Shown here piece by piece: positions 40,825 to 43,770 of a stretch of 64,000 nucleotides of DNA. Position 1 is the first letter of the stretch. Each line of letters starts with the position of its first letter. A model generated the notes under the pieces. That model saw nothing but the letters and a program-made list of their open reading frames with translations, did no database searches and was not told the DNA's origin. The position numbers were made by a program, and so were the translations under genes. Source of the DNA: Caldilineaceae bacterium (GTDB taxonomy: Bacteria; Chloroflexota; Anaerolineae; Caldilineales; Caldilineaceae); contig OY282376.1 in the NCBI GenBank assembly GCA_958295845.1, positions 4,291,022 through 4,355,021 on the forward strand, written 5' to 3'.

Positions 40825-41976
40825 ATGACAAGAATGAAAGAAGCGGCGGCAGTCGGTCAGTCGATCTGGTTGGACTTCATCAGGCGCTCATTCCTGGATT
40901 CCGGGGAGTTGGGCGAAATGGCTGCCCAGGGACTTCGGGGCGTTACATCCAACCCATCGATTTTTCAGAAGGCGATCACGGCCAGTACCGACTATGATGC
41001 CGCGGTTGAACGGCTGGTCGGTGAAGGCAGATCGGTCAATGACATATACGAGGCGCTCGCTATCCAGGACATTCGCCGCGCGTGTGACATCATGCAGCCG
41101 GTCTATGTGAGCACGGACGGGCTGGACGGCTATGTCAGCCTGGAAGTGAATCCAAAGCTGGCCTATGACACGGAAGGCACGGTAATGGAAGCCCGCCGCC
41201 TGTCGTCTCTGGTGGACCGGCCGAATGTGATGATCAAGGTACCGGCGACGCCGGAAGGCATACCGGCGATCGAGACCCTCACGGGCGAGGGCATCAACAT
41301 CAATGTCACGCTTATCTTCTCTTTGCAGCAGTACGAAGACAGCGCGATGGCCTATATTCACGGCCTGGAGAAGCTGGCTGCAGCGAACGTTGACTTCAGC
41401 CGGATGGCGTCGGTCGCGTCTTTCTTCGTGAGCCGGGTGGACGGAATGGTTGACCCCAAGTTGGTTGAACTCGGGAACAGCGAGCTTCAAGGAAAGATCG
41501 CTATCGCGAATGCAAAGATGGCCTATCACCGTTTCAGCGAACTGTTCAGCGGCCCGCGCTGGGACAGGCTGGCAGCGCAGGGCGCGCGGGTACAGCGTCC
41601 TCTGTGGGGAAGTACGAGTACCAAGAATCCCGACTACCCTGACACGCTCTACGTGGACACTTTGATCGGGCCGCACACGGTCAATACGGTGCCGCCTGAG
41701 ACCCTGGACGCATTTCTGGACCATGGCACCGCGGCCCGTACGGTGGACGCCGATGTGGAGCAGTCCCGGCAGCATTTGGCGCAGCTGGCTGAAGTTGGCA
41801 TCGACCTTGACGAGGTCACCACGCAGTTGATGGGCGACGGTGTAGACGCCTTCGCGGACTCATTTGATGAACTGATGTCGGGCATTGCGCAAAAGGTGGC
41901 CGACATCGCGGGCGGGGACGACAATCAGACAAGAGAGCGCGCCGATTTTTTTACGGTGCCCTCCGGAGCCAAGTAG
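40825..41976 (+). CDS. tal: Transaldolase (N-terminal half of a Tal-Pgi pair)
   Basis: Moves dihydroxyacetone units between sugar phosphates in the pentose phosphate pathway. 383 residues, the larger actinobacterial/cyanobacterial-type subfamily. Motifs: GVTSNPSIFQKAI, VMIKVPATPEGIPAIE with the Schiff-base Lys near 138, GININVTLIFSLQQY, and VASFFVSRVD. AGGAGAAGAGTAATC precedes the ATG. The frame ends (TAG at 41974) 24 nt after a T7 run at 41946-41952; in the -1 frame translation would continue without a stop into pgi. In many Cyanobacteria, Actinobacteria and Chloroflexi, tal and pgi are one fused gene. Confidence 0.93.
   Translation: MTRMKEAAAVGQSIWLDFIRRSFLDSGELGEMAAQGLRGVTSNPSIFQKAITASTDYDAAVERLVGEGRSVNDIYEALAIQDIRRACDIMQPVYVSTDGLDGYVSLEVNPKLAYDTEGTVMEARRLSSLVDRPNVMIKVPATPEGIPAIETLTGEGININVTLIFSLQQYEDSAMAYIHGLEKLAAANVDFSRMASVASFFVSRVDGMVDPKLVELGNSELQGKIAIANAKMAYHRFSELFSGPRWDRLAAQGARVQRPLWGSTSTKNPDYPDTLYVDTLIGPHTVNTVPPETLDAFLDHGTAARTVDADVEQSRQHLAQLAEVGIDLDEVTTQLMGDGVDAFADSFDELMSGIAQKVADIAGGDDNQTRERADFFTVPSGAK
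41946..41952 (+). promoter_or_regulatory. T7 homopolymer, candidate -1 frameshift site joining tal and pgi
   Basis: The tal frame reads GAT TTT TTT ACG here. Slipping back one base gives TTT TTT TAC GGT GCC and an open frame that runs straight into pgi (YGALRSQVEGALEAIDRERI, then VTRIWARSHSVW). There is no stop between the T-run and the annotated pgi start. A programmed frameshift, a real indel, or a homopolymer sequencing error would all look like this. Confidence 0.6.
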
Positions 41977-42041
41977 AAGGCGCTCTGGAGGCGATCGACA
42001 GGGAACGGATCGTTACACGCATCTGGGCCAGGAGCCACAGT

Positions 42042-43637
42042 GTGTGGAGCGACAGGCCTGACGAGATCGTAAACCGTCTGGGCTGGCTGGATATTGCCGT
42101 CAGAATGGAGGATGAGCGGCATTGCATCAGCGCCCTGTTGCAGGACTTGCAGCAGGAGGGCTACACGCAGGCGGTTCTGCTGGGCATGGGGGGATCCAGC
42201 CTGGCGCCGGAGGTGTTTGCGCGTACATTCGACAGCGGCCCGATGGCGCTGCGGATATTGGACAGCACGCATCCTGCGGCTGTCCAGAGCCTGGCAGACA
42301 GTTTGGATCCGGCGCGAACGCTTTTCATCGTCGCCACCAAGTCGGGTACCACGGCTGAAACGCTGTCCCTCTTCAAGTATTTCTACAATCTTCTTCAGGA
42401 CACGCTGGGCGAAGCGGAGGCGGGCGCGCACTTTGTCGCGATAACGGATGCTGGCAGCGAGCTTTTCAAACTGGGTACTGCATGCAACTTCCGCTCGGTC
42501 TTTGTCAACGATCCCAACATCGGCGGCCGCTACTCGGCGCTGTCCCACTTTGGTTTGCTTCCGGCGGCCCTGGTGGGGGTCAATCTGCGACGTCTGCTGC
42601 GGCGGGCGCAAGAGGCGAAAAACGATTGCGGACGGCATATCACCGGTTCTGCCAATCCCGGCGCCCAGATAGGCGTGATGATGGCCGAGATGGCCAAGGC
42701 GGGGAGAGACAAACTGACAGTTATCGCGGACGAGGAGGTTGCTTCGTTCGCGGACTGGCTGGAGCAGCTGATTGCCGAGAGCACCGGCAAATCAGGGACG
42801 GGAATTGTGCCGGTGGTTGGTGAAGCGGCGGCTTCACCGGAGGCGTACGGATCGGACCGGTTGTTCGTTCACCTGCAGTGGAGCGACACAGGCGCACAGG
42901 ATGCGAAGATGCAGGCGCTAATAGACGCCGGTCATCCGGTGATCCGCGTGCGCTTCCGCGATAGGTACGACCTCGGGGCACAGTTCTTCCTGTGGGAGTA
43001 TGCCACGGCGGTTGCGGGGGCGCGGTTAGGCATCCACCCCTTCGATCAGCCGGATGTTGAGTCGGCGAAACAGCAGTCACGGCAGATGATGTCGGCCTAT
43101 ATGGAGAGCGGAAGCCTGCCTGCGCCGAAACCGTCGCTGGAAGCCGCCGGCGTTAAGGTCTATATTGGGGGCGGGGATGGAGACAGGCCGCCCAGCAGTG
43201 CGGACGAAGCGCTGGCAGCCTTTGTGGATCAGGCCCAGGCGGGGGATTACATCAGTATACAGGCATACATGCAGCCGTGTTCGTCCGTGGGCGGATTGCT
43301 CAAGACCATGCAGGGACGTCTGCGGGACCGGACAAAGCTGGCGGCGACAACGGGCTACGGTCCCCGCTTTCTTCACTCTACGGGCCAACTGCATAAAGGG
43401 GATCGCGGAAACGGTCTCTTTATCCAACTTACTGACAGGCCTTCTTCAGAAGCAGACATTCCCGACGAGCCCGGTTCGCCGGAGTCGGCGGTGCCGTTCG
43501 GCGTCCTGATCCAGGCCCAGTCGTTGGGGGACCGGCAGGCGCTGTTAGATGCAGGGCGGCGCGTGTTACGGATCGACCTTGGAGAAGCAGCAGAGTCGGA
43601 ACTGGAGCGGCTGGTCGATTCGCTGGCGACGGCGTGA
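42042..43637 (+). CDS. pgi: Glucose-6-phosphate isomerase (C-terminal half of a Tal-Pgi pair)
   Basis: Interconverts glucose-6-phosphate and fructose-6-phosphate. As annotated from GTG 42042, 531 residues: AVLLGMGGSSLAPEVFAR and VATKSGTTAETLSLFKYF (SIS-domain sugar-phosphate sites), then a second SIS domain and YGPRFLHSTGQLHKGD near the C-terminus, typical of the Pgi half of bifunctional Tal-Pgi. GGAG lies 7 nt before the GTG, so independent initiation is possible. However, about 30 codons upstream in this frame (…RIVTRIWARSHSVW) also read like the homologous Pgi N-terminus, so the true protein probably begins inside or is fused to tal. Confidence 0.9.
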   Translation: MWSDRPDEIVNRLGWLDIAVRMEDERHCISALLQDLQQEGYTQAVLLGMGGSSLAPEVFARTFDSGPMALRILDSTHPAAVQSLADSLDPARTLFIVATKSGTTAETLSLFKYFYNLLQDTLGEAEAGAHFVAITDAGSELFKLGTACNFRSVFVNDPNIGGRYSALSHFGLLPAALVGVNLRRLLRRAQEAKNDCGRHITGSANPGAQIGVMMAEMAKAGRDKLTVIADEEVASFADWLEQLIAESTGKSGTGIVPVVGEAAASPEAYGSDRLFVHLQWSDTGAQDAKMQALIDAGHPVIRVRFRDRYDLGAQFFLWEYATAVAGARLGIHPFDQPDVESAKQQSRQMMSAYMESGSLPAPKPSLEAAGVKVYIGGGDGDRPPSSADEALAAFVDQAQAGDYISIQAYMQPCSSVGGLLKTMQGRLRDRTKLAATTGYGPRFLHSTGQLHKGDRGNGLFIQLTDRPSSEADIPDEPGSPESAVPFGVLIQAQSLGDRQALLDAGRRVLRIDLGEAAESELERLVDSLATA

Positions 43638-43710: not shown

Positions 43711-43764
43711 AGTGCAAAGCGGTAACGAAGTGCCAAGCGGTAACGAAATGCAAAGCGGTAACGA
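43711..43764. repeat. 18-bp tandem repeat, three units, just before rpiA
   Basis: AGTGCAAAGCGGTAACGA (43711-43728), AGTGCCAAGCGGTAACGA (43729-43746), AATGCAAAGCGGTAACGA (43747-43764). The rpiA ATG (43771) lies 6 nt after the last unit, and the sequence after it (ATGCAAAACG) continues the pattern imperfectly. Confidence 0.88.
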
Positions 43765-43770
43765 ATCCAG

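Follow-up and report, generated by a model that had tools for sequence, protein, structure and literature searches.

Few bacterial metabolic genes are known to depend on programmed frameshifting. One of them is chlD (magnesium/cobalt chelatase), which the tal-pgi locus presented here resembles in being a metabolic enzyme gene with two products, predicted in our case, made via -1 frameshifting, and in having in-frame fused homologues elsewhere, Chloroflexus included (PMC3711429, PMC9227772). The frameshifting of chlD was measured at 10-63% in E. coli (PMC3711429, PMC9227772). However, chlD has an A-rich A_AAA_AAR site, encodes a different enzyme and shows a broad phylogenetic spread (PMC3711429, PMC9227772). 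Like tal-pgi, csoS2 and dnaX combine a slippery site with a downstream stem-loop, which sets the ratio of two products (PMC5009743). In csoS2, -1 frameshifting is about 50%, and its site, like that of tal-pgi, apparently lacks a 5' Shine-Dalgarno stimulator (PMC5009743). In csoS2 and dnaX, on the other hand, frameshifting leads to the shorter product, whereas in tal-pgi it would lead to the longer fusion. The predicted tal-pgi frameshift product is matched end to end by the bifunctional transaldolase/phosphoglucose isomerase family (NF007080, PRK09533); the fused relatives examined have one open frame, while in the frameshift genus the frame changes between the Tal and Pgi domains. The literature searched, which did not cover the supplementary tables of frameshift surveys, contained no account of frameshifting in either tal or pgi; one of those tables might still list the case without comment. 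While the mechanism itself is familiar, its use in this gene, for this pair of enzymes and in this clade appears to be new.

The locus lies in a window of 64,000 nucleotides (the whole stretch of DNA analysed) from an uncultured member of the Caldilineaceae (Chloroflexota), and positions are given in that window. Based on comparative evidence, with neither experiment nor expression data, tal and pgi are very likely one recoded gene that uses programmed -1 frameshifting. The first-pass annotation had left three readings open, i.e., programmed frameshifting, a one-base indel that split an ancestral fusion, and a homopolymer error in the assembly. The first is supported by the comparison, although slippage in the cell and its frequency are inferred; the other two are rejected below.

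Two reading frames and their predicted products

The two frames are arranged as follows.

40825-41976, + strand: tal, transaldolase, zero-frame product of 383 aa ending in the stop codon TAG, a complete Tal domain by profile
41952-43637, + strand: pgi frame, -1 relative to tal, 561 aa; the joined protein matches NF007080

The tal product matched NCBIfam TIGR00876 with 345.7 bits (cut-off 233.75) over profile positions 3-349 of 350, and also Pfam PF00923. Tal alone spans the whole TIGR00876 profile, and reading in the zero frame therefore yields a complete enzyme domain. It had been claimed earlier that seven T at 41946-41952 are followed 24 nt on by the tal TAG and that slipping back one base opens an uninterrupted frame into pgi; both claims held. 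The TAG at 41974-41976 ends 24 nt past the run, and a one-base slip at the run gives YGALRSQVEGALEAIDRERIVTRIWARSHSVW and then a stop-free frame to 43637. The fusion would consist of Tal residues 1-376 plus 561 aa, 937 aa in all, with T41952 read twice. The joined protein matched NF007080 with 1152.2 bits over residues 2-935, against a curated cut-off of 712 bits, while the separate halves reached only 522 and 619.9 bits, both below it. The likely products, inferred without expression data, are a Tal of 383 aa and a Tal-Pgi of 937 aa.

The flanking genes, which encode a ROK-family protein on the upstream side and ribose-5-phosphate isomerase on the downstream side, are consistent with sugar metabolism. 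A short repeated motif (GTGCAAAGCGGTAACGAA / GTGCCAAGCGGTAACGAA / ATGCAAAGCGGTAACGAA) at 43713-43766 separates pgi from the ribose-5-phosphate isomerase gene. In a profile search of the whole window genome the pgi of tal-pgi was the only PF00342 match; a second PGI-family gene was sought across that genome and not found, and therefore the supply of Pgi should depend on slippage. The same genome has a second TAL_FSA match, a 245-aa protein far from tal (locus L076, 1408-2145 on the minus strand; G000:C1 near 1637939-1638397). The match is weak (63 bits), the similarity is low, and the protein is unlikely to be a standard transaldolase; it leaves the junction unexplained.

Slippery heptamer, hairpin and their conservation

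The genus sample comprised 17 genomes, with records including the Caldilineaceae MAGs SB0661_bin_32 and SB0664_bin_27 and the chromosome-level OX638330.1 and OY282381.1. Fifteen of them hold the tal-pgi junction; the others are G003, with only a piece of pgi at a contig end, and G006, with neither gene. G006 is a 94%-complete genome without any tal or pgi match, which could reflect lost genes or a gap. The elements at the junction, all on the + strand, are as follows.

41946-41952, + strand: slippery heptamer T_TTT_TTT, in the right phase for -1 slippage, invariant in 14 of 15 genus genomes
41953-41959, + strand: 7-nt spacer from the heptamer to the main stem, equal in length in all 15
41960-41969, + strand: 5' arm of the 10-bp stem, CCTCCGGAGC, paired in all 15
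41974-41976, + strand: TAG that ends tal, located in the loop of the hairpin; its first base is 22 nt past the last T of the heptamer, and it is invariant in position and codon in all 15
41982-41991, + strand: 3' stem arm, GCTCTGGAGG, which follows the tal TAG and is identical in all 15
41954-41997, + strand: weaker 4-bp lower stem around the main hairpin (41954-41957 with 41994-41997), most pairs of which are retained by G-C/G-U variation

The site and its phase are read directly from the genomes. In the tal frame the seven T are read GAT TTT TTT ACG, and the X_XXY_YYZ heptamer criterion in the zero-frame phase is satisfied in 15/15 genomes (T_TTT_TTT or T_TTT_TTC). The run is seven T followed by ACG in 11 of the 15. 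The finding of eight T, indicating an in-frame fusion, had been named in advance as a refutation; eight T do occur in G008, G009 and G013, yet in these genomes the extra T stands in place of the A that otherwise follows the run, and the frames remain shifted. The deepest-branching genome, G004, has T_TTT_TTC, i.e., six T and then C, which is no longer a seven-base homopolymer but still a slippery heptamer. At the heptamer, 14 genomes use TTT for both Phe residues and only G004 uses TTC for one of them, although over the tal-pgi genes TTC is the commoner Phe codon (339 vs 201 TTT). A run of seven T is by itself ordinary, with 4 observed in the window against 4.7 expected; what goes beyond chance is the conservation of the in-phase run together with the hairpin and the frame layout across 15 genomes.

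In E. coli, U_UUU_UUU is reported to be much less prone to shifting than A_AAA_AAG (PMC5009743), and therefore the efficiency could be modest. An upstream Shine-Dalgarno-like stimulator, an optional feature, was not detected, as anti-SD pairing at the tal-pgi site was no stronger than background.

The hairpin at 41960-41991 had been missed by the first-pass annotation. Its arms, CCTCCGGAGC and GCTCTGGAGG, are separated by twelve nt, and its ten pairs are standard in 150/150 cells (ten pairs in 15 genomes). When the partner was shifted by one to three columns, pairing over the whole structure fell from 98% to 37-51%. Ribosomal stimulators are usually spaced 5-9 nt from the slippery site (PMC5009743), and this criterion is satisfied by the 10-bp stem at 7 nt in 15/15 genomes. 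When 174 segments of 45 nt were compared along the gene, stability was greatest at the junction, whether judged by the mean or by the worst of the 15 genomes; the worst-case energy there was -17.2 kcal/mol, compared with -12.6 kcal/mol for the next best. Single-sequence z-scores at the junction were -0.9 to -4.4 across the genomes (about -2 to -3 in the window genome), and for this reason the support for the hairpin comes chiefly from conservation. No two-sided compensatory changes were found in the stem, which is nearly invariant, so there is little variation to judge by. The 4-bp lower stem is likely to be open while the ribosome occupies the heptamer. Three other readings of the region were set aside. 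A pseudoknot of the H type, in which the spacer GCC would pair with the loop GGC, was dropped on the inference that its connecting loops would be of zero length; an RNAalifold pairing of part of the T run with a downstream GGGA was not relied on, as the heptamer would sit within the ribosome; and an intrinsic terminator was ruled out, as the T run comes before the hairpin.

A single layout was present in 15/15 genomes: the heptamer in phase, the hairpin 7 nt on, TAG at +22 (counted from the heptamer's end) and Pgi encoded in the -1 frame. Synonymous codon identity between same-residue pairs averaged 0.63 (sd 0.09) over 971 tal-pgi codons and reached 0.96, the highest value in tal-pgi, at Pgi codons +3 to +12, where the hairpin lies. 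Part of this peak is due to double coding before the TAG, and the 5' arm is likewise partly constrained by two-frame coding; the 3' arm, however, lies past the TAG. There the Pgi-frame Ala, Leu and Glu are encoded by GCT CTG GAG in 15/15 genomes; a single codon is used at 3/3 fully conserved residues in the 3' arm, compared with 30/287 comparable columns elsewhere in pgi. Pgi is 74-91% identical across the genus, under purifying selection, and both frames are maintained. The conservation criterion, i.e., a conserved site and frame arrangement with raised synonymous conservation, is therefore satisfied at tal-pgi.

Sister genera in the family have one-frame Tal-Pgi fusions, open over about 950-1140 codons. 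When 51 Pgi sequences were placed in a quick tree, the frameshift genomes fell into one clade (support 100) nested among family members that are all fused; most likely, therefore, the fusion is the older state and gave rise to the frameshift a single time. As far as such a tree allows, a single origin of the arrangement from an ancestral in-frame fusion is very likely. In a sample of the class the cassette was present in 14/396 genomes, all from the frameshift genus, once per genome, and no other frameshift case was found at 54 further loci with short or edge-cut pgi frames. Since the class was surveyed selectively, the frameshift could still occur elsewhere in rare cases. In another MAG of the class Anaerolineae (locus L112, G391:C311:1100-3100), the tal match ends at residue 304 and lies in a frame other than that of pgi; this could be a broken fusion or an assembly frameshift, without the conserved cassette.

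The start of pgi and rival explanations

One rival, considered very unlikely, is that two separate proteins are made, with tal ending at the TAG and pgi starting by coupled initiation at the annotated GTG.

42042-42044, + strand: GTG called as the pgi start, GTC in G004, G011 and G012; the 48 nt upstream evolve as Pgi-frame codons

In favour of it, AGGAG is located 7 nt before this GTG (AGGAG-N7-GTG) in the window genome and several relatives. A point against frameshifting is the ATG that G004 carries in the pgi frame, at +42. However, no ATG, GTG or TTG occurs in the pgi frame from the upstream stop to the junction in any of the 15 genomes. Further downstream, 12 genomes have their first start codon at +90 (the GTG at 42042 of the window) and two have it at +153 (ATG), while in G004 it is the ATG at +42; the pgi frame thus lacks a start before +90 in 14/15, and the GTG at +90 is absent from three genomes of two lineages, the deepest branch among them. 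The criterion for independent overlapping genes, a conserved pgi start near the junction, failed across the 15 genomes. Pairwise differences from +42 to +89 at codon positions 1/2/3 were 134/146/543, showing that the segment is translated in frame with Pgi. Pgi-frame residues 1-30 were modelled as confident helices (predicted, pLDDT 88-97), R23 among them is invariant in 25 sequences from several phyla, and unfused Pgi genes elsewhere start upstream of the position homologous to the GTG. Beyond the genus, the nearest relatives have Tal and Pgi fused in frame. A start at the GTG would also leave the conserved heptamer and hairpin unexplained. The GTG is probably an internal Val codon, although a minor truncated product from it is possible. 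At two loci (L099 and L101, in G168 and G337) tal and pgi are unfused with an ATGA stop-start overlap, an alternative coupling of both genes.

Transcriptional slippage would place the event in RNA polymerase, with mRNAs carrying one extra U encoding the fusion. T runs can cause such slippage, and the 7-8 T in 14 genomes are compatible with it. However, it is less likely because G004 retains the cassette with just six T and then C, and the hairpin lies at a spacing within the range usual for ribosomal stimulators; this explanation, too, is considered very unlikely.

Homopolymers are error-prone, but a sequencing or assembly error is all but excluded, as the identical frame relation occurs in assemblies from 15 different species (three of these assemblies are single contigs) and is kept in G004 at a heptamer (TTTTTTC) that is not a homopolymer. 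A neutral one-base indel that split the fusion, now decaying, fits the likely ancestral state of the family but is all but excluded because the slip site, the tal stop and the hairpin have all been conserved and the sequence that follows evolves as coding, with both frames under genus-wide purifying selection and the only PGI-family gene of the window genome at stake.

Proposed mechanism and meaning

In the favoured reading, programmed -1 frameshifting, ribosomes would translate tal up to the T_TTT_TTT heptamer, where the 10-bp hairpin 7 nt downstream, at the mRNA entrance, would delay translocation. Some ribosomes would slip back one base and continue into pgi to give the 937-aa Tal-Pgi fusion; the remaining ones would arrive at the TAG in the hairpin loop and release the 383-aa transaldolase. 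That slippage occurs in vivo, that it is the ribosome rather than RNA polymerase that slips, and how efficiently it does so are inferred from sequence alone.

A plausible purpose, likewise inferred, is an excess of Tal over Pgi in which every Pgi is tethered to a Tal. Such an excess could suit enzymes of unequal speed, or the tethering could serve the passing of fructose-6-phosphate. In a bolder reading, which we consider more doubtful than not, Pgi would be present only as the C-terminal half of the frameshift product, and the efficiency of slippage would set the balance between the pentose-phosphate cycle and glycolysis, possibly in response to conditions that alter translation.

Caution is necessary in annotation, since ORF calling splits tal-pgi and assigns Pgi a false GTG start. 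The case illustrates how recoding can evolve from a fused gene, with a U-rich slippery site and a near-invariant hairpin. An ancestral in-frame fusion apparently became a ratio-setting device once, at the base of the genus, and was then kept, and in the window genome slippage at tal-pgi seems to be the sole route to Pgi.
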